Assembly: GCF_000226095.1 (NCBI RefSeq)
Contig: NC_016478.1
Location: forward strand, 62,001 to 126,000
Source of the DNA: Thermothelomyces thermophilus ATCC 42464
Taxonomy: Eukaryota; Ascomycota; Sordariomycetes; Sordariales; Chaetomiaceae
Reading direction: 5' to 3'
Length of the DNA stretch: 64,000 nucleotides
In this document: positions 7,801 through 63,011 of the stretch, in pieces
How the letters are laid out: each line of letters starts with the position of its first letter
Numbering within the stretch: the first letter of the stretch is position 1
The notes under the pieces: model-generated
What the model saw: the letters and a program-made list of their open reading frames with translations, nothing else
Told to the model about the DNA's origin: nothing
Databases searched by the model: none
Made by a program: the position numbers and the translations under genes

Positions 7801-8417
7801 AAATATACGTACTATATAAGAAGCTTAAAAAGGAACTCGAGTTTATTAGAACCAGAATAAAGAACTACTATAACAAATATAGGCTCGAGGGACCTTACCT
7901 AGAGAGAGGAGATAAAGTCTACCTAATTATATAAAACTTATAAACTAAATAACTAAGCATAAAGCTAGACTTTAAGAAGGTTAGACCCTTTGTTATCAAA
8001 GAACGAATCTCGACATCTAACTATTGACTATCGTTACCGTCATCTATATAACTATAGACAGACATTTTTTATATTTTACTTCTTAAACTAGCGCCAAAGA
8101 ACGCTAAAATCGCTACGAATATCGAAGCAAAGGACAAAGAGAAAGAATAGGACGTCAAAGAAATTCTAGATTTACGTATTATTAATAGGGAACTATAGTA
8201 TCTAGTTAAATAGCTCGATTTTAAACTAGAGGACAACTCGTAGGAACTAGTCAAGAATTTAAACTGCCCTAAGAAACTAGAACAGTTCTACTACTAGAAC
8301 CTGGATCGACTATAGGCACTAGCTTAGATAAAATAGCCAAGTCAGCCTCCGATAAATCTAGGCCTAAAGAGGACCAATCAAACGGGACGTCAGCACCCTA
8401 GGACCGTACGTTACTAA
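4623..8417 (+). pseudogene. pol: Beta-1 pol: protease, RT, RNase H, integrase, chromodomain
   Basis: This lies in the -1 frame relative to gag and overlaps it by up to about 200 bases; the start is approximate. Landmarks are: protease LVDSRAEINLIS at 4794-4829; RT box YLNNILIF near 5976-6000 (Asp pair lost); RNase H DALDYTIGGQ near 6429 and TDYKNL near 6631; ADALSRR near 6760 ending RNase H; integrase Asp in TIDFITKL (about 7273), a mutated TDRDTKF reading TNRDTKF (about 7474) and the Gln-Thr-Glu-Arg region (about 7578); and a chromodomain at 8154-8300 with VKEILDL and YLVK. It ends at TAA 8415-8417. Dozens of TAG/TAA codons make it dead. Confidence 0.88.
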
Positions 8418-8911
8418 CAACGCGTACCTTGGAATCCCGCACCCTCCGTTCTTCCACCTCTATTTCCTCTATAGACTATATACCTCGACGAAACAACTTA
8501 GAACCCTACTCCTTTAAGAAACGTTTCTAGTAACGAAGACGAGCTAATTGACCGATAGCCGTCTAAAGTTAAGTCTAAAGAACGAAAAGGGCCTCTTTAG
8601 CATTAGCCTCTTCTTATTCTACGCGTTTCTACTTAGATATAATCTTTGTCATTATAAAAGATTAGCTATAAACATTAAGGTAATAAACAAGGCTACGAAC
8701 AAGCAGACGCTATATTAGAACCATTATAAGAACGACCCTAACATATACACTTGCTATAGCAAGAAGAGCCTAACGCTATATGACAAGCTAAGTTTCGCTT
8801 AAAACACCACAAACACGGTATAATGTCTATACTAGAAGAATCAATAAAAGAAGCAAGCGCGGTGTGCTATTAGGATTTCGAAGATTGACGCTTAGAGATA
8901 CGATCTGCCAT
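8261..8911 (-). pseudogene. Beta-1 antisense gene, subtype I: six-cysteine plus helical protein
   Basis: Read on the minus strand from ATG at 8911 (M-A-D-R-I-S-K-R) to TGA at 8261-8263, this is 217 codons in one frame and ends antisense to the 3' end of pol. The same frame at the same length exists in beta-3 (651 nt after removing a solo LTR) and at 660 nt in beta-5. In beta-5 the N-terminal part shows C-x2-C-x6-C-x8-C-x2-C-x6-C spacing (two Cys mutated to Tyr). The C-terminal half is Lys/Glu-rich and probably coiled coil. RIP-type stops interrupt it. Function is unknown. The spacing matches the Zn2Cys6 binuclear-cluster consensus of fungal transcription factors, but no DNA-binding role is shown. 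Confidence 0.7.
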
Positions 8912-10714: not shown

Positions 10715-11364
10715 ATGCCGATAGAGAAACGGAAGTTACATTCTACACATTACCGTGCTTCCCTTGCTTAGAACATCGCTAAGAACGGTTTTGTTGTTAT
10801 GCCTTGCTCTTAGTGTGCGTCACAAGGCCTTGTCTGCAAAATGATCGCGTGTATAAAGCGTTGTAAGGCCTATGTTCGTCAAGGTCGTTCTTACAATAGC
10901 TCTAGCATCTTACTTTCTTTCTATAAGCTTGTCTCCCCTTTTTTTTTTTTTTTTTACTATGATTCCTAATGTTTGTTCTAGTAGATTGTATTCTTTAGGA
11001 GCAGCGTCGTATCAAGGATACTAAATGTCGTGCCGAACTTGAGCTAGATAAGTCCTAATACCATCTAGAAGAAGCCTAGCACAAGTTGTCTAAAAAGCTT
11101 ATACGGCTCCGGCGTCTTTGTCAGTAAAAGGAGTTTTTGGTAGAGAAAGGTACCGATATAGTAGCATATAGTCTGTCGACCTTGGACAAGTTAGAGGAGG
11201 TTGAGCGGCAAGAGACGCTTACTATGCCCTTGTTACAGATTAATGATGCCGTCGATACTATCGACTAAGGCACTGTCTTTAGTTCTGTCCCGGGTTTTCC
11301 TTTAGTCGATCCGGGTTCTGCTAGTAGAACTGTTCTAGTTTCTTAGGATAGTTCAAATTCTTGA
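10715..11364 (+). pseudogene. Beta-2 antisense gene, subtype II: six-cysteine plus helical protein
   Basis: Starts at ATG 10715 (MPIEKRKLH) and reads in frame through the cysteine array at 10805-10895: C-x2-C-x6-C-x8-C-x2-Y-x6-Y, the last two being Cys to Tyr changes. A 17-T run at 10939-10955 follows. The charged C-terminal part (EEQRRIKDTK at 10999, then RLRRLCQ and VEKGTDIV) lies in a frame shifted relative to the start. The join is therefore either a length change in the T run or an intron ending near 10998. The stop is TGA 11362-11364, antisense to the 3' end of pol. The protein is clearly related in design, not in close sequence, to the subtype I and III versions. Confidence 0.7.
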
Positions 11365-37700: not shown

Positions 37701-38298
37701 AAAGCTTAAAAAGGAACTCGAGTTTGTCAAGACTAGAATAAAGAACTACTATAACAAATATAGGCTTAAGGGACCTTGCCTAGAGAGGGGAGATAAAGTC
37801 TACCTAATCGTACGAAACTTATAAACCAAACGACTAAATACAAAGCTAGACTTTAAGAAGGTCAGACCCTTCGTTATTAAAAAATAAATCTCGACATCTA
37901 ACTACCAACTATCGTTACTATTATCTATATAACTATAGATGGATGTTTTTTATATTTCACTTCTCGAACTAGTACTAAAGAATGCTAAGGTTACTATATA
38001 TATCGAAGTAAAGGACGAAGAGGAAGAATAGAACGTCAAAGAAATTCTAGATTTACATATTATTAACGGAGAACTATAGTACCTAGTTAAATAGCTTGAT
38101 TTTAGACTAGAAGACAACTTATAGGAACCTATTAAGAACTTAAACTGCCCTAAGAAACTAGAACAGTTCTACTAGTAGAACCTAGATCGACCGTAGGCAC
38201 TAGCTTAGACAAAGCGGCCAAGTTAGCCTCTAACAAATCTAGGCTTAAAGAAGACTAGTTAAATAGGACATTAGCACCCTAGGACTATATATCACTAA
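34505..38298 (+). pseudogene. pol: Beta-3 pol with an intact YLDD box but a frameshift
   Basis: In the -1 frame to gag; start approximate. The protease LVDSRAEINLIS begins at 34676. The RT catalytic box reads YLDDILIF at about 35859-35885. It is the only copy in the window that keeps both Asp. RNase H, integrase and chromodomain (about 38030-38180) follow. The expected stop TAA (38296-38298) is out of frame with the protease, so at least one small deletion occurred. One lost base is visible near 37683 when compared with beta-1. Many TAG/TAA codons. Confidence 0.84.
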
Positions 38299-39256
38299 TA
38301 ATATATACCTCGGAATCCTACACCCTCTATTCTTCTGCTTCTATTTCCTCTAGAGACTATATACCTCGACGAAACAGCTCGGAACCCTGCTCCTTCAAGA
38401 AACGTTTCTAGCGACGAAGACAAGCTAATCGGCCAATAGCCGTCTAAAGTTAAGTCTAAAGAACAAAAAGGGTCTCTTTAGCATCGGCCTCTTCTTATTC
38501 TATACGTTTTTATTTAGATATGATCTTTGTTACTATAAAAGGTTAGCTACGAACATTAAGGTAACAAACTAGGTTATAAACAAGCAGACGCTATATTAGA
38601 ACTATCGTAAGAACGACCCTAATGTACGTACTCGCTATAGCAAGAAGAGCCTGACACTATACAACAAGCCAAGTTCTGCTTAAAACACCACGAACACGGT
38701 ATAACGTCTATACTAGAAGAATTAATAAAAGAAGCATATGACGAACCTAGCTTAGACTTCTTCTGAAAGGGTTTAGACGGAGGTAAATTAAGCGGGACAA
38801 GCGTGTAGGTTGTCTAAGGGATTTGGTGAAGCCAAAAGGTTCACAATAACACTAGAGTTGTCTCCTACAATGGTTAGTGATGCTTGGTATAAATACCGGT
38901 GATTATAGGTTGGGTTGCTATTACTGGTGAACTCCTAGAGTCTACTATAACGAGTGACTATTTATATATATATATACTTCTGCCGATCGCTTATGATCCC
39001 TTTCTATCCTGCCCTTGGATTGCCTTTGGTAGCTAGCTATCCTCTGCTATCTTTCCCTTTTTGGCAATCGTTCGCCTGTGGTAGCCCGCGCTCCCTAGCG
39101 ATCCCATGTCAGCCTCGCTTCGTGCCCTTCTTGATTGGTGGCTCATTTAGCCTTCTGTGCCCTACCGGGTCGCGGTATATGGTTGGCTCGTGACAAAGTA
39201 AGTATAACGTGCTATTAGGATTTCAAAGATCGGTGCTTAGAGATACGATCTACTAT
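38142..39256 (-). pseudogene. Beta-3 antisense gene (subtype I), split by a solo LTR
   Basis: Minus strand from ATA 39256 (mutated ATG, compare beta-1 8911) to TAA at 38142-38144. Subtracting the solo LTR and its 5-bp duplication leaves 651 nt, exactly the beta-1 length (217 codons). The insertion lies in the N-terminal part. RIP stops occur throughout. Confidence 0.65.
38737..39195 (-). repeat. Solo beta LTR (subtype III) inside beta-3
   Basis: 459 bp, running TATGACGAACC to CTCGTGACA on the plus strand, flanked by AAGCA (38732-38736) and AAGTA (39196-39200). These are the same duplication after one C-to-T change. U3 is subtype III, as in beta-4. No internal sequence remains, as expected from LTR-LTR recombination. 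The 79-codon open frame at 38954-39193 is simply U3 and not a gene. Confidence 0.9.
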
Positions 39257-42319: not shown

Positions 42320-42997
42320 ATAGCTAATTGTATTCCTAGGAACTGTCGTGATCTTAAGCGCGAACAATATACTATTATAATTAAGATTAAGCGAGAGGGT
42401 TACGAGGTCGCTATACCTTACAAGCGTTGTTAGAATACAAAGCCGTAAAAGCATTATATGATAATAGAGGGTTTAAACAAGTATTAGAACTATATTTACA
42501 TAGGCAAGAAGTGTAGTAGCCTAAACGTTACAAATGCCTATAGGTTCCTTGTTATTTTCCTTTATAGTCCTAGGTTACTAACTATCTTAGTCCTTTTAAA
42601 TTTGTCGGAGCAGGAGAAGGTTTCGAAAGAGATTACTAAGACTAAGGCGCTTCTTACTTAGATACTAAGCCGTTTAAGTCGATTACGTCGTTTATAGCAA
42701 TCCCTGTGCGATCGTGGTACCAAGGTTTTTCGTCATGGTATAGCTCGTCTAGAGGAGGAGGAAGAACTAGATACTCCTCTGCCGATGTCGGAGATATAGA
42801 CCCTTGTAGGTTAGGCTTAGGCGTTAGGTGCTTTTAACGTACTCGATTAGGAGTTAATCGGGTTAGATCCTAGTCCTAATTCTAGTAGGTCCCTCTCTTT
42901 TTCTATTAGGGAATAGGCTTTAGAACCGGTTTTTATAGCTAGTTAGGATTCTACCGGTAGAACTACTCTAGTTTCTTAGGGTAACTTAGGTTCTTGA
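42320..42997 (+). pseudogene. Beta-4 antisense gene, subtype III: six-cysteine plus helical protein
   Basis: One frame of 226 codons runs from ATA 42320 (probable ATG; A-N-C-I-P-R-N-C follows) to TGA 42995-42997. The cysteine array at about 42416-42515 reads Y-x2-C-x8-Y-x8-Y-x2-Y-x6-C: the six positions are right and four Cys are changed to Tyr. After it comes a charged helical stretch (LSEQEKVSKEI at 42602, then ILSRLSRLRRL and FRHGIARLEEEEEL). The arrangement parallels subtypes I and II but the sequence is clearly different. It overlaps the 3' end of pol on the other strand. The partner internal copy (49371 onward) has lost this gene. Confidence 0.7.
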
Positions 42998-55457: not shown

Positions 55458-55884
55458 TGTAACGAACCTAACTCAGACTTCTTCTAAAAGGGTCCAGACA
55501 GAGGTAGATTAGGCATAATAGGCAGGCAGGTCGTCTAAGGGATTCGGTGAAGCCAAAGGGTTTATAACAACACTAGAGTTATCTCTCATAGTAATCAGCA
55601 ATGCTTAGTATAAGTACTGTAATTGTAATTGTTACTACTAGTAAACTCCTAGAGTCCACCGTAACGAGTGACTATATATATATATTTATAATCCTAGGAT
55701 CACTAGCGGTCGTAGTGATCCTCTGTACTAGCTTACCTGGCTCACGTCGTGAGCTAGTGATCCTCTGCTAGGATCATTTCTTGCCAAGTGTGATCCTGTC
55801 CTGATTGGTCTATCATTCCTTTGGCCTGATTGGCCTGTTCGTGTCGGTAGCCTAGGTAGCAGCTGTATGTATATTTCCGTGATA
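55458..55884 (-). repeat. Beta-5 3' LTR (subtype I)
   Basis: TGTAACGAACC to TTCCGTGATA. U3 carries AGTGATCCTCTG twice (near 55714 and 55756), a third GTGATCCT near 55789, and two inverted AGGATCA copies. It also has the palindrome CTCACGTCGTGAG (55741-55753). These may be regulatory repeats. Confidence 0.9.
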
Positions 55885-56010
55885 CGATGCCCTCCCTCCG
55901 AGGCTTTCGACCCGAAAGCCCTCTTTAGGCCGTTTTAAATAGCGTTAACGTCCTTTTCTATATATGCCTTGCAATTTTTTCCTTTTTCCGTACTGCTAGT
56001 AGCTAACAAG

Positions 56011-56670
56011 ATAGCAGATCGTATCTCTAAGCGCCGATCTTCGAAATCCTAATAGCGCGCCGCGCTTGCTTCTTTCATTGACTCCTCTGGTGTAGACGTC
56101 ATGCCGTGTTCGTGGTGTTTCAAGCGGAACTTGGCTTGTCGTATGGCGTTAGGCTCTTCTCGCTATAGCGAGTGTATACGTCAGGGTCGTTCTTACAATA
56201 GTTCCGATGTAGCATCTGCTTGTTCATAGCCTAGTTATTACCTTAATATTTATAGCTAATCTTTTATAATAACAAGGATTATATCTAAACAAAAACGTAT
56301 AGAACAAAAAGAGGCCGATACTAAAGAGGCCCTTTTTGTTCTTCAAACTTAACTTTAGACAGCTATCGGTCGATTAGCTTGTCTTCATCGCTAGAAACGT
56401 TTCTTAAAGGAGCAGGGTTCCAAGCTGTTTTATCGAGGTATACAGTCTCTAGAGGAAATAGAGGCAAAAGAACAGAGGGTATAAGATTCCGAGGGTTGTG
56501 TCATTAGTGATGTACGGTCCTAGGGTGCTGACGTCCCGTTTAACTAGTCCTCTTTAGGCCTGGATTTGTTGGAGGCTAACTTGGCCGTTTTGTCCGAGCC
56601 AGTGCCTACGGTTAATCCGGGTTCTAGCGGTAGAACTATTCTAGTTTCTTAGGGCAGTTCAAATTCTTGA
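56011..56670 (+). pseudogene. Beta-5 antisense gene, subtype I: best-preserved six-cysteine plus helical protein
   Basis: One frame of 220 codons from ATA 56011 (ATG in beta-1) to TGA 56668-56670. Residues 33-62 (56107-56196) read C-x2-C-x6-C-x8-Y-x2-C-x6-Y, and restoring the two RIP changes fits the Zn2Cys6 spacing. Residues about 95-155 are Lys/Glu-rich (KRIEQKEADTKEALFVLQ, KRFLKEQGSK, SLEEIEAKEQ) and probably coiled coil. Only a handful of TAG/TAA/TAA-type stops break it. It runs against pol and overlaps its last codons. Possible roles include DNA-binding or Gag-associated protein, but nothing here proves one. Confidence 0.72.
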
Positions 56671-59600
56671 CTAGTTCCTATAAGTTGTCTTCTAGTCCGA
56701 AATTAAGCTATTTGACCAAGTACTATAGTTCTCTATTAGTAATACGTAAATCTAGAATTTCTTCAACGTCCTATTCTTCTTCCTTGTCTTTTGCTTTAAT
56801 GTACGTAGCAACCTTGGCGTTTTTCGGTGCTAGTTCGAGAAGCGAAATATAAAAAACATCTATCTATAGTCATATAGATAATAGTAACGATAGTCAGTAG
56901 TTAGATGTCGAAATTCGTTCTTTGATAATAAAGGGTCTGACCTTCTTAAAGTCTAGCTTCGTGCTTAGTCGTTTAGTTCGTAGGTTTCATGCAATTAGGT
57001 AGACTTTGTCTCCCCTTTCTAGGCAAGGTCCCTCGAGCCTATATTTGTCGTAGTAGTTCTTCATTCTGGTCTTGACAAACTCGAGTTCCTTTTTAAGCTT
57101 TTTATATAGTATGTACATTTGTTCTACTTTGACTGCTGCTCTCGGTACTATGACCTCTAGTCCTTGCCTAAGGTCTGCTTTATATCTATAGTTCGCGAAG
57201 AACGGTGTAATTTTAGTCGTTTCCGTTGGTGTCGTGTTGTAAGCGAGTTGTACTATTGGCAATAGTATGACCTAGTCGTCTTGCTAGTAGTTAACGTAAG
57301 AACAAAGATACTGCTTAATAACTTGGTTTAATCGCTCCGTTTATCTGTTAGTCTGTAGATAATATGCTATTAATAGCTTGCTACTAATGCCTAATCGTTA
57401 TATTAACGCTTGCTAGAACTTCGATACAAACTTAGTGTCTCTATTAGTGATCTATTCTTGTGGCTAAGTATATACTAATGTAACTTGCCGATAGATTACG
57501 TCTACTAGCTGTTTAGCTATCTAGGACTCCTTATAGGGAAAGAAGTATGCCTATTTAGTCAGGCGATCTACTATAGTGAGAATGCTGTCGTAGATTACTC
57601 CTGTAGCCGTGTCCTTAGATTCTAGCAGCTTTGTAATAAAGTCTATCGTAACTAAGCTCTATAGTTTGTCAGCTATTGGCAGTGGCTAAAGCAGCCTATA
57701 TGGCTTATATTATGCCGTTTTGCTTCGATTATAGATGTCATAGCTCTATATAACTTCCTTAACTCATACTGTTAACTATAGAAAGTCGTAGTGTTTCTTG
57801 ACTTATACGATAGTCTTCGTAACTCCTTTGTATCCTCTAAGTTTCGACTTATAGAGTTCTTAAATCATCCGTAGCTGTTAATCCCTGTTATAGATATATG
57901 CTTTGCCTTAGTACTAGAGTTTCCTATCTTTCTCTTCTACTCCGTCAGGTACCACTGGTCTAGGTGCTGCTTGATACTATACCTTGTTAATCCTTTCCTC
58001 TCGAAAGATTATATAGCATTCTAGGAACGAGTCAAGTAGATTATCTTCTACAGGTGTCTACGTTTCGTGATGTAGCGTTCTGTCTGTTTGTTCCTTAAAT
58101 AACGGTGGCGTTGTTTCCGTTCGTCCTTCCGTATGATCTGTTCGTCGGCTTAAGATGTCTGCTCGTACGTTCTCTTTGCCCTTCTTATAGCAGATCTCAA
58201 AGTTAAATTCTATAAGGAATTCTGCCTATTATATTTGTTGTCTATTAAGCTCTTTCGTTATTATAAAGTATTATAGGTTCTTGTGATCTATATATACTTG
58301 TACTAGTTTAATCGTATTACTGAGGTATAGTTACTATTCCTTGAAAGCTTTAATAATTGTAAGTAGTTCCTTGTTATAGATCGGATAATTGAGACATAGT
58401 CTATCGAGCTTCTTTAAAAAGAAGGCTATAGGATATAACTTCCCTTGTTTGTCTCGTTGTCCTAATTGTCCTCTAATGGTATAGTCTAAAGCGTCCGTTT
58501 CTACCTTAAATAGCTTCTTAGGGTCTAGTAGTACCAGTACTAGATCTTTAGTAATGGTGTTACAAATCTTTATAAATGCTTGCTCGTATCGCTCTTCCTA
58601 TTGAAATTCGGCGTTCTTCTTGGTAAGTTTATACAAAGGTCATACAATCGCTCTAAAGTTCCTAATGAACATTCGGTAGAAGTTTGTAAATCCGATGAAA
58701 CTTTGTACTTCTATAACTAACATTAGTTATAGCCAATTCTTGATAGCTTTAACCTTTAAAGGTTCTATCCGAATTTGTCCTAGGGATATTTCGTATCTTA
58801 GAAATACCGTTTTCCTAACGTGGAATTTGCTCTTTTCCTTGTTAACTAATAGTTTATATATATATAGTACGTCTAACACTGCTTTTACGTGCTTCTAGTG
58901 TTTATCTATCGTCTTAGAGAAGATAAGTATATTATCGAGATAATATACTACAAATTTGTCGAGAAAGGGTTGGATAGCTTGATCAATCAAGGCTTAGAAC
59001 GTTACCGGCGCGTTCGTAAGTCCAAATGGCATGACGAGGTACTCGTAGTGGCTATAGGGTGTCCTAAAGGCCGTTTTCCACTCGTCGCCTTCTTTGATCT
59101 ATATATAGTTATAGGCCGATAGCAAGTCAAGACGCGTGAAATATTAGGCTCCTACTAACTAATCTCGGAGCCGTGAGATTAGTAGTAATAGGTATCGATT
59201 TTTTACGGTCTGTTCGTTAAGTTGCCGATAGTCGATATATAACTATAGCTTTCCGTCTTTCTTAGGCATAAACAGGATTAGGTAGCCTGCTGGCGATGTC
59301 GACAGGCGGATATATCCTCTTCGAAGGTTCTCTTCCAAATATTGCTTAAGTTCTTCGTTCTATATCTAGCTTATATAGTAGATCTTAAAGAACTTTAGTC
59401 GTGCTCCTTCCTTGAGCTTGATCTTGTGATCCTATAGGCTATATTCTAGTAATCCTTCTAGATACTTCGGTTCGAATGCTAGGTATCCCTTATACTCCTT
59501 CGGTACTTCCCTAGTCTTGTCTCATCTCTTAGTTTTCTAGTAGTATACGAACTTGGTTCCGTCTATAGCGATACTAGCGATTTCTCCTATCTCAACCTAC

Positions 59601-60298
59601 TACTCTAATTGCAGTGCTCCGCATTCGTCAATAGAGAGAACAGCTATCGGCGGTTTAGCTCGTTCTTCCTATTACGATATCGATGTCGTTATGCTGCCTC
59701 TTCTAGAGTCTGTAGTGGTCTGCCTGCCACTGTCTATCTCTTACGGTAGATCTATAGGATATGCCTTCCTTTGAGTATCGTCTGCTTGTAATCCTTACAT
59801 ACTCCCTATTTTGCTAGTTAAATGCGACTCTATCTAGGGTTGCAAGTAGCTACCATTCTTCTAGCTAATGTCTAGGTTATAATCTTCATACTATAGTAAC
59901 CCTAATATTATGTCTTTATCGTTACCTATGTCTACGATACTAAATATAACTACTATAGTCTTCCCTGCTATAGTAATGTCGATCGGTTTAGTCTCCCTAT
60001 ATATCCATTACGTCGGAAATGGTCCTTTGACTATACCATGCTTCTACTTCATTCTCTAGAGTATCTGTAGCTGATTTATAAGTGTTGGCGAGATTAGGTT
60101 TATCTCTACTCTATTGTCTACTAGTATAAGTATTTCATGCTGTTTCCATTATACTATTATCTATAGTCGCTTGTCTTGCCACCGTCGTCCCAAGATTGTA
60201 GCGACTTCTTATACTTCTACTAGGAGGTCTCGATATAGTAGTCTCTTACGCCAGTCCCTCCTATACTACGCTACCACTTGCCGCTACGCGGGCGTTAA
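56504..60298 (-). pseudogene. pol: Beta-5 pol, near-complete
   Basis: Minus strand. The protease begins at 60130, the stop TAA is at 56504-56506, and the 3,627 nt between are in frame, identical in length to beta-1. The RT box reads YLDN (antisense to about 58930-58950). The integrase C-terminal part is uninterrupted over 91 codons at 56987-57262 (QLAYNTTPTETTK, FFANYRYKADLRQGLE, ERGDKVYL). The chromodomain lies antisense to about 56640-56780. Elsewhere TAG/TAA at Gln/Trp codons abound. The plus-strand frames at 58695-59122 and 59553-59774 are shadows. Confidence 0.88.
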
Positions 60299-62558
60299 TG
60301 GTTTCCAGGCCCCTCGAAGGGCCCTGACCCGTTTCCCAGGTCAGTGCTAATCTCTTTAGTTATTCGGCTAATAGCAGCTTCGTCAATTATACTTATTTCT
60401 GTAAGCTATTAAGTGCTTACAGCTTCCTACCATTAGGTCCGTTCTGCTTTCCGTCGTACGTACTATAGCTTTGTCTAAAGCTCCCGAATTCGCAATTTCT
60501 TCTTGTCCGTATGATAGAGGCAATCGTTGCTCTAGCACGAGTCCTATATATCTTGTCCGGTTCCGTAGTGCCTAGGCTAGGCTCGTTTTGGAACTATCGT
60601 AATGCTTTCTAGATCGCGGGCTTCGATCTTCCAAAGCAATTCGGCCGCTCTGTTTCCTATATTGTAGACCCATTCTATAGGGTGTAAGCTTCTGTCCTTA
60701 TTTCCTTGTCAGGTCGGCTAGTAATTGTTTTCGAATTTGTCGTAGAAGTAATATCAGCATTCGTATGCTATATACTAGAACTAGGGCACTTGTACATGTG
60801 CCTTGTATCGAGGGTATAGTCGTATAGTATTGCCTAGGAGGTATTAGAATTTTTTCCCGAATCCTTCCTACTATATATAGACTATAGGTACTCTAATACT
60901 AAGATAGGAGTATTTCTTCTAGTAGCTTTCCTATATACACTTGTCTTTTCTACAGTTCGTGTATATAAACTAGTATTCTAGGTTCCATACGTCATTACTA
61001 AGTTGCTAGTCATTAAGGTACTCGGCGTAGCTATTAGGTCTATTATATGTCATAGGCTGTTCTCCTTTAATAGTTTCTATAATACATTAGAGTTCCCTTA
61101 TCTTGTCCCTTATCTTATCGCTCTACTAGACAAGTTAAATCAAGCGTCTATCCCATTTGTATAGTTCTATATTAAGTCGGAAAACTTCGTTACAGTACTA
61201 TTCGATTCGTTCCTAGAGGAATAGAATATTAGGTCTAGGTCTTTCGATTCCTTAGGTATCGGTTGTCCACAATCTATCCTGCCTCTATATAACTATAAAA
61301 CCCTACTGCCTTAAGGCTAGAAGAATCGAAATTGGCGGTATATACTCTCCTGCCGTATCCCATTCGGCAAGACCTATCTCTAGATCCACAGTGACCAGTT
61401 CGGAGTACGGTGCTTGTTTGTCTTTACCCTTACTATCGTATCTAAGACTGTCTGTGTCATTGCCCTTGTCTTTGTAGCTCGTAGCCGCTACTTCGATAAT
61501 GTCTTTAGTAGTTTTGTCAATAGCCGTAATTTCCTTCCTAGGGGCTAGTTTCTTCTTTCTTTCTTTAGGCTCTAGCATTCTCGCTTATAGTGCCCTTTCT
61601 TTCTATAGTTATAGTAGGTAACATTAGACTTGTCTTTAGTCGTCTTCTTCTAGTCCTGCTTCTACGTTACGTCTATATCTATAGCTCTAGGGTACGTCCT
61701 ATACAAGGTACTAACGTACGCTTGCTTTTTCTTGTTATTAGCCTTAACTATAGTTCCGTTCATTCGACCTCGTTTCTACTACTCTTGTGTATAGAGTCGA
61801 TCATCGATCCTAATGGCCTATATAATATATTCGTCTAGAGTCTTAGGCTAATCATACTTATATAGCTTATCTTTAACCTTTTCCTTTAAGCTATTATAGA
61901 ATAATTATATTAATACCTCGTCGTTAAGCTAAGACTTAAGTATATCCTATCTAAATTATATAGTATAAGAGGCTACTAACTTAGTCTATCGGAGATTAGC
62001 AAGTCTTTCTTATATATAAATCTTCTTATCTTTGTCGCTAAAAACTTTCCAAAGCTCTTCTTCGAAATAGTTATAAGATTAGAAGACTGCCTATATAAAC
62101 GCGTCTTAGTTATCTTCGTCTTCCTTAGTAAGATAGTCATTCTATATAGGCTCGAACTATCTAAGTACCTTGCCCTCTAGTCTCGTAGCTATATAGAGGA
62201 CTTTAGCTTTATTATCCGGAAACTTGTCGTCATTAAGCCAGAAGTAGGATCAGAGGTTTATTAGGAATCCTACAAGATCCTCCTTGGTTCCTCTGTATTT
62301 GCTAGGTAGTTCGATCTTGATACGCTTCGCTTTAGCGCCCTCGAGTGCCTCGATTTTAACGTAGGCCTCGTTAACTAACTTCTATAAGTACTTTTTACGG
62401 TTCTCGAGTTCCTTAATTTGAGCTTAAGCAGCCTTGTCTCTCTGGTCCAACTCCTAGATCCGCTACTAGAGTTAACTAAGCTAAGCGAGCAGCTATTCGG
62501 CCGTGACGTTGGTAGCCATGTCGATGTCAAGGTCGAAGTTACCTCCGTTCTAAACCAT
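60100..62558 (-). pseudogene. gag: Beta-5 gag with a TTTC-repeat frameshift
   Basis: Minus strand from intact ATG 62558 (M-V-stop-N-G-G) to TAA 60100. The length is 2,459 nt against 2,457 in other copies. The extra two bases lie in a CTTT/TTTC run at about 61549-61568, just after the CCHC knuckle (HYKREC retained, antisense to about 61580-61620). The 91-codon open stretch 61303-61578 (KEITAIDKTTKDIIEV, KDKQAPYSELVT) is genuine gag sequence downstream of that point. Confidence 0.86.
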
Positions 62559-62585
62559 GATAGAACAAAGGGAGTGGTAATAACA

Positions 62586-63011
62586 TATAACGAACCTAAC
62601 TTAGACTTCTTCTAAAAGGGTCTAGACAGAGGTAGATTAGGTGTAATAGGCAGGTAGGTCGTCTAAGGGATTTGGTAAAGCTAAAGGGTTTATAATAATA
62701 CTAGAGTTATCTCTTATAGTAATTACAATGCTTAGTATAAGTACTGTGATTGTGATTGTTACCACTGGTAAACTCCTAGAGTCCACTGTAACGAGTGACT
62801 ATATATATATATTTATAATCCTAGGATCACTAGCGGTCGTGGTGATCCTCTGTACTGGCTCACCTGGCTTACGTCGTGAGCTAGTGATCCTCTGCTGGGA
62901 TCATTTCTTGCCAAGTGTGATCCTATCCTGATTAGTCTATCATTCCTTCGGCCTAATTGGCCCGTTCGTGTCAGTAGCCTAGGCGGCAGCTATATGTATA
63001 TTTCCGTGACA
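62586..63011 (-). repeat. Beta-5 5' LTR (subtype I)
   Basis: TATAACGAACC to TTCCGTGACA; direct repeat of 55458-55884, with the same AGTGATCCTCTG copies. Confidence 0.9.

Follow-up and report, generated by a model that had tools for sequence, protein, structure and literature searches.

An antisense gene for a probable Zn2Cys6-like protein varies together with the adjacent U3 in a chromovirus of Thermothelomyces thermophilus

The window element and its antisense gene

The window, a stretch of 64,000 nucleotides from Thermothelomyces thermophilus ATCC 42464 (contig NC_016478.1, positions 62,001 to 126,000; C7:62001-126000 in the searched genome of 38,744,216 bases in 7 contigs), contains a long terminal repeat (LTR) retrotransposon at ~55458-63011 that carries an additional gene opposite to its own reading frames. 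The pol gene lies on the minus strand and the additional, antisense gene on the plus strand, between the chromodomain and the 3' LTR, as an earlier note made from the sequence alone had proposed. The 3' LTR occupies 55458..55884 (minus strand; outer ends placed by eye from the terminal repeats), and the element's 5' LTR, 92% identical to it, occupies 62585..63011 (minus strand; right end extrapolated by 2 nt). Antisense genes of this kind occur in several types, which we name beta (the type of the window element), gamma, delta and fourth. Over 3,726 nt, the pol of the window element departs from that of gamma only by transitions and by 7 transversions. The gamma pol (1264 aa, locus L061) scores above the Pfam cut-off for aspartyl protease, RVT_1, RNase H, H2C2, SH3_Tf2-1 and Chromo, and its integrase domain rve reaches 30.4 bits against a cut-off of 32.6; the element is a Ty3/Gypsy chromovirus.

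The antisense gene of the window copy consists of two exons, 56011..56221 and 56270..56670 (both on the plus strand), which together make 203 codons and are separated by a 48-nt intron at 56222..56269. The exon sequence codes for a six-cysteine array, C-x2-C-x6-C-x8-C-x2-C-x6-C (56107..56196, plus strand), followed by a Lys/Glu-rich part that AlphaFold2 models predict as a long helix (residues 64-154 of the homologue P0001; 56200..56520 on the plus strand by alignment, the DNA being split by the intron). The array agrees with the earlier description, Cys 4 and Cys 6 being Tyr codons in this copy. The open frame of 220 codons described earlier does not exist as such: eleven in-frame stops, two of them intronic, precede the terminal stop at 56668-56670, and the start codon is ATA. 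The 3' end of pol, encoding the chromodomain tail, overlaps the end of the antisense gene tail-to-tail at 56504..56670 (minus strand), limits that we infer from a sense stop column at 56504 present in 40/40 copies. In gamma the corresponding overlap is 122 nt, and the distance from the antisense start to the 3' LTR is 127 nt, compared with ~126 nt in the window.

The two-exon structure was deduced from P0001 (200 aa; 61% identity, covering 99% of the query), which is without the 16-17 mid-protein residues encoded by 56222-56269, a segment that bears splice-like sites and in which the three indel sites of the region all fall. The intron is also missing in eukaryotic gene models of relatives. 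Genomic DNA searches scored the best 40 candidates (of 537, 442, 60 and so on), and the copy numbers given here are lower bounds. Among the best 40 copies the intron measures 48-50 nt, with donor GT in 23 (AT in 17), acceptor AG in 35 (AA in 5) and a CTRAY branch-like site in all; the start codon is ATG in 25, and the terminal codon is a stop in all 40. The longest stop-free segment on the antisense strand of these copies has 141 aa (L015).

The pattern of mutation in these 40 copies is that of a coding sequence. The exons (612 nt) have no indel site and the 48-nt intron has three (Fisher p 3.6e-4); the LTR plus leader (511 nt) has 21 indel positions from ~15 events, and pol (530 nt) none. A stop occurs in some copies in 22 exon codon columns and is fixed in none of them, the alternative codons listed (up to five per column) being CAA, CAG, CGA, CGG and TGG, all of which are transitions away from stops. 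In the antisense phase the only fixed stops are the terminal one and one within the intron, and each of the remaining five phases has between 2 and 7 columns with a fixed stop across the region (0-4 per exon). Each of the six cysteine codons is TGY or its transition form TAY in 40/40 copies. A test of transversions by codon position was uninformative, with only 13 variable exon sites. The C:G to T:A decay of these copies is what we take to be repeat-induced point mutation (RIP).

Further evidence comes from the other types. All 18 practically unmutated gamma copies encode a spliced protein of 196 aa; their intron varies from 66 to 80 nt through its T-tract, and none of the 18 frames stays open without splicing. 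Over the 156 codons outside the pol overlap, gamma and a lightly mutated delta copy (L066) are 60/67/35% identical at codon positions 1/2/3, with nonsynonymous differences (pN) of 0.37 and saturated synonymous differences (pS) of 0.75, and the proteins are 51% identical. A pN below the saturated pS therefore indicates, at the level of sequence comparison, that the antisense gene was under purifying selection while the gene types diverged. An antisense-strand intron would remain unspliced in the genomic RNA, and for that reason could survive retrotransposition.

Taken together, the antisense gene is almost certainly a real, spliced protein gene. The eleven stops of the window copy would suit a chance frame or an annotation artefact, an explanation that the 18 intact gamma copies refute and that is contradicted as well by the fixed-stop pattern, the lack of exon indels, the codon-position bias and the existence of homologues; we give it practically no weight. 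The claim that an accessory gene preceded the point-mutation decay thus stands: a search for frame-breaking indels, for loss of the cysteine codons beyond the TAY transition and for absence of the frame in intact relatives found none of these, and the six cysteines are also largely conserved across genera. Two further origins were excluded: conservation imposed from the sense strand, as pol covers no part of exon 1 and only a minor part of exon 2, and a single capture of a host gene, as the types are old and several.

The antisense protein family

Profile searches, which scored the 7,997 and 7,996 candidates that share most words, yielded 40 and then 72 proteins in overlapping sets, with homologues in Parathielavia, Canariomyces, Corynascus, Staphylotrichum, Neoarthrinium, Apiospora and Thyridium, as well as in Xylariaceae, Verticillium, Fusarium oxysporum, Cordyceps, Rostrohypoxylon and Aulographum; MYCTH_77342 of T. 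thermophilus ATCC 42464 itself is among the matches listed. The protein has ~200 aa, with six cysteines in Zn2Cys6 spacing followed by a predicted helix of ~90 residues. The exact spacing is kept by 50 of 83 homologues and by none of 16,600 shuffled sequences, and a looser pattern, C-x2-C-x6-C-x5..12-C-x2-C-x6..8-C, by 56/83; several of the remaining 27 are fragments or have one cysteine replaced. Among 51 aligned sequences, five of the six cysteines and most of the R-R-G-R between Cys 5 and Cys 6 either do not vary or reach at least 90% conservation; the whole C5-C6 loop, V-R-R-G-R-S, is nearly invariant.

The assignment to Zn2Cys6 proteins, proposed in the earlier note, is supported by several lines of evidence and qualified by others. 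In its favor are the spacing, the UniProt labels of some homologues and the Pfam comparison, where 33 of 51 homologues match Zn_clus (PF00172) at E up to 10 (best 1.7e-4) and the next family is matched by 8/51. A Foldseek search of PDB with model 1 returned Zn2Cys6 proteins in all 14 rows, at E 0.78 or worse, which is weak support from the fold. Against it, the bit scores are 7.5-18.1 in all 12 homologues with scores listed, below the gathering cut-off of 21 bits, and 11 further homologues have no Zn_clus row; judging by the best E among the 51, one member may lie at the cut-off. The raw cysteine piece of the window copy gave no Zn_clus row in Pfam, only Peptidase_M29 at E 0.34. The family profile matched PDB sequences weakly and chiefly through the helix (best E 0.052), and a fold search of BFVD gave no match at E up to 0.001 (best 2.4). 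We use the term Zn2Cys6-like because of the sub-cut-off Zn_clus scores, and consider the protein, on sequence grounds, to be probably a DNA binder of this kind.

The family shares its cysteine spacing with the fungal Zn2Cys6 regulators PUT3, HAP1, Leu3 and Pho7, and like them the modelled protein has two short helices after the cysteine pairs and a long helix behind. It differs from these regulators in having only ~200 aa, in its scores and in its basic residues, which are concentrated in the second loop, not in the first. In Zn2Cys6 clusters basic residues sit in the loop that joins Cys 2 to Cys 3; here two positions of this first loop are basic in 26/50 and 29/50 homologues, and three positions of the second loop in 46-49/50.

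Eleven C-terminal tails, hand-picked from the 83 proteins, were compared with three short frames by short-query BLAST. All eleven align with the chromodomain end of L061 as translated from its antisense strand, and the longest are those of P0015 from Corynascus and P0017 from Staphylotrichum. This suggests that the same antisense arrangement exists in other species. In a tree of 52 rows (50 of the 83 homologues plus two added here; bootstrap not settled) gamma clusters with one protein from Canariomyces (100/95) and one from Corynascus (99/93), delta with proteins of Corynascus and Staphylotrichum (100/99), and beta with Parathielavia and a second Canariomyces protein (96/89). By these groupings the gene types are common to several genera, through age or transfer. 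P0003 and P0008, both on 3,920-nt contigs, probably represent a single antisense gene whose two exons were called as separate genes. A scan of IMG/VR with the antisense family gave 49 pattern matches, none of them confirmed.

Joint variation of the antisense gene and U3

To relate the types, we compared gamma (L061) with delta (represented by the three loci L066-L068), beta and fourth (both from the window). The backbone of these elements is nearly uniform. Between types, transversions amount to 0.000-0.005 by segment in pol, where the four comparisons, two of them with delta, count 7-8 transversions over 3.7 kb (5-7 at third positions) and a gap column in one of the four. Values are 0.000-0.012 for gag plus leader and 0.009-0.026 for R-U5. 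In contrast, antisense exons outside the pol overlap differ by 0.26-0.32 and U3 by 0.25-0.30. A mutated gamma-type element of the window, used as a control for decay, shows only 0.000-0.005 in exons and U3. The LTR divergence ends at the TATA box, where the common part starts; in the window copy the type-variable U3 upstream of the TATA box occupies 55686-55884, and the TATA box, R and U5, common to the types, occupy 55458-55685 (minus strand, both delimited by the cross-type comparison).

The antisense type equals the U3 type in all 48 neighbor pairs listed (18 gamma, 16 delta and 14 beta; no cross-type pair), as drawn from the best-40 lists, in which copies are not independent and 72 of 120 antisense places are without a listed U3 neighbor. 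Pol coalesced recently and the antisense gene long ago, which requires recombination, and the antisense region has very probably been exchanged in this way. The joint divergence further suggests that antisense gene and U3 were swapped as one 3' cassette; a one-step exchange is likely, though not proven, because an island of ~70 nt at the edge of the 3' LTR (55878..55944, with a purine tract on the element strand and a palindrome) is shared by beta, gamma and delta. Pairwise recombination between related elements, as we propose here, has been described for Onsen, in an account that, as far as we could consult it, contains neither an antisense gene nor old cassettes on a uniform backbone (PMC5668417). 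A survey of the literature, limited to listings and abstract openings, found neither an exchange of an antisense gene together with U3 nor a zinc-cluster antisense gene.

The palindrome of this island, GGCTTTCG-ACC-CGAAAGCC (55902-55920), lies beside the purine tract between the antisense start and the LTR. Gamma and delta also have it, and the fourth type has an altered form; 13 of the best 40 beta copies have it intact, and the other forms listed differ by transitions. It is a candidate for a shared operator or an RNA hairpin.

The gamma elements are a recently active chromovirus family. Their LTRs of 448 nt are 99.8-100% identical within the pair in 5/5 elements examined, and a 5-nt target-site duplication can be read in four of the five. 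The eighteen practically identical gamma copies (L061-L065, L069, L078-L095) are almost without point-mutation decay, and stand beside many decayed relatives. Four gamma U3 copies at 100% identity have no listed gamma antisense neighbor or partner LTR (C4:2749515, C3:2433156, C3:250642 and C1:7069401), and are perhaps solo LTRs. A search of the gamma LTR for CGG pairs was negative. A scan with a bacterial promoter and terminator model, ill-suited to a fungus, gave 2 promoters versus 1.8 in shuffled sequences and 3 terminators versus 1.0.

Several related copies are found elsewhere in the window. Matches to the 56-kb copy reveal a second beta-type antisense gene at 8251..8911 (minus strand) and a third, interrupted one at 38134-38736 and 39208-39256 (minus strand), where ~470 nt are inserted within exon 1 (38736-39208). 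A mutated gamma-type gene, 83% identical to that of L061, lies at 10715..11364 (plus strand), and the fourth, much diverged type, on nearly the same pol, lies at 42332..42997 (plus strand). The earlier note described one frame in four of five copies and a disrupted version in the fifth; the copies that we take to be these five carry three different antisense types. The corresponding region of an element at ~49.4-55.4 kb gave no match to the antisense gene.

Possible roles and comparison with known antisense genes

We propose that a spliced antisense protein gene and U3 would form an exchangeable 3' cassette whose protein regulates its own U3, an explanation that, taken as a whole, we regard as evenly poised. 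During reverse transcription, a single template switch near the end of pol would replace the antisense gene and U3 together; one switch would suffice because U3 is present only at the 3' end of the RNA, beside the antisense gene, and is then copied to both LTRs. The antisense strand would be transcribed from or near the 3' LTR and its intron spliced out, and the protein would dimerize through a coiled coil and bind DNA, its own U3 being the most likely site. This binding would set the transcription of the element, amounting to self-limitation, and would leave elements of another type uncontrolled. Action of the protein on its own U3 is the simplest reading because a DNA-binding-like protein is encoded beside U3 and varies with it, although we hold it only tentatively, at somewhat less than even chances. 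More doubtful is a counterpart of phage immunity regions, in which each antisense Zn2Cys6-like dimer would repress or otherwise set only its accompanying U3. If this were true, copies with a foreign cassette would evade the control of the residents, and old cassette types found across genera would have kept exchanging on a young and uniform gag-pol under frequency-dependent selection.

Selection might instead have swapped U3 for a promoter unseen by homology-based silencing, with the antisense gene hitchhiking and serving another task. This account, which we find somewhat unlikely, agrees with the retroviral copying rule that moves U3 and the adjacent antisense gene together, with the end of LTR divergence at the TATA box and with the many point-mutated copies in the genome; alone, it leaves unexplained why the antisense protein is conserved across cassette types and genera. 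Zn2Cys6 clusters combined with a coiled coil are the layout of fungal transcription factors, and the resemblance of the antisense protein to this layout, together with a C5-C6 loop that is nearly invariant across types although U3 varies, would also fit a protein directed at host chromatin or genes (integration site choice, anti-silencing or host regulation). However, these data contain no pointer to a host target and the co-variation is with U3, so that such a role appears unlikely. The antisense RNA itself might act, as double-stranded RNA or through transcriptional interference, the reading frame being incidental; the tail-to-tail overlap with pol is in line with this, and antisense RNA of a retroelement can work as RNA, according to the part of an account of human T-cell leukemia virus type 1 (HTLV-1) that we consulted (PMC10186651). 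The codon-position pattern, the lack of exon indels, the splice sites and the six conserved cysteines make this very improbable.

Regulation of the accompanying U3 by the antisense protein, if it occurs, would involve a family that is widespread in filamentous ascomycetes and in several species is named just hypothetical protein. It would also attach a function to a chromovirus gene that retains an intron and varies with the adjacent promoter. To our knowledge, self-limitation of LTR retrotransposons is understood in few cases. One genome contains one type in intact copies and a second in lightly mutated ones; type-specific self-control is therefore directly testable in it.

The earlier note considered a Zn2Cys6 gene antisense in a chromovirus unusual; an antisense gene in a fungal Gypsy element has a precedent in brtn, which Boty-like retrotransposons carry in Botrytis cinerea (Zhao et al. 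2011, Virology 417:248; via PMC7264820, PMC8365987, PMC4227169). It lies between pol and the 3' LTR of a chromodomain-bearing Gypsy element, the position also found here; the parts of the citing accounts that we consulted do not mention a zinc cluster, an intron or cassette exchange, and we liken the two by position and description. Among the 72 homologue rows listed, a set limited by the choice of candidates and mostly without names, no Botrytis name appears. HBZ of HTLV-1 is likewise antisense, has a spliced form, is expressed from the 3' LTR, is nuclear and lowers sense transcription (PMC10186651, consulted in part). The likeness is an analogy of layout and proposed action: HBZ is a bZIP protein, unlike the zinc cluster of the antisense protein, and no bZIP family is among the Pfam rows listed (25 of 117 families in one of the Pfam runs). 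The antisense open reading frames of plant Retand elements encode a TRP28 domain, here compared with the antisense family by description, and Retand elements are not chromoviruses, unlike the element in the window; from what we consulted of their account, they resemble the gene described here in position, orientation and predicted DNA binding (PMC11963269).
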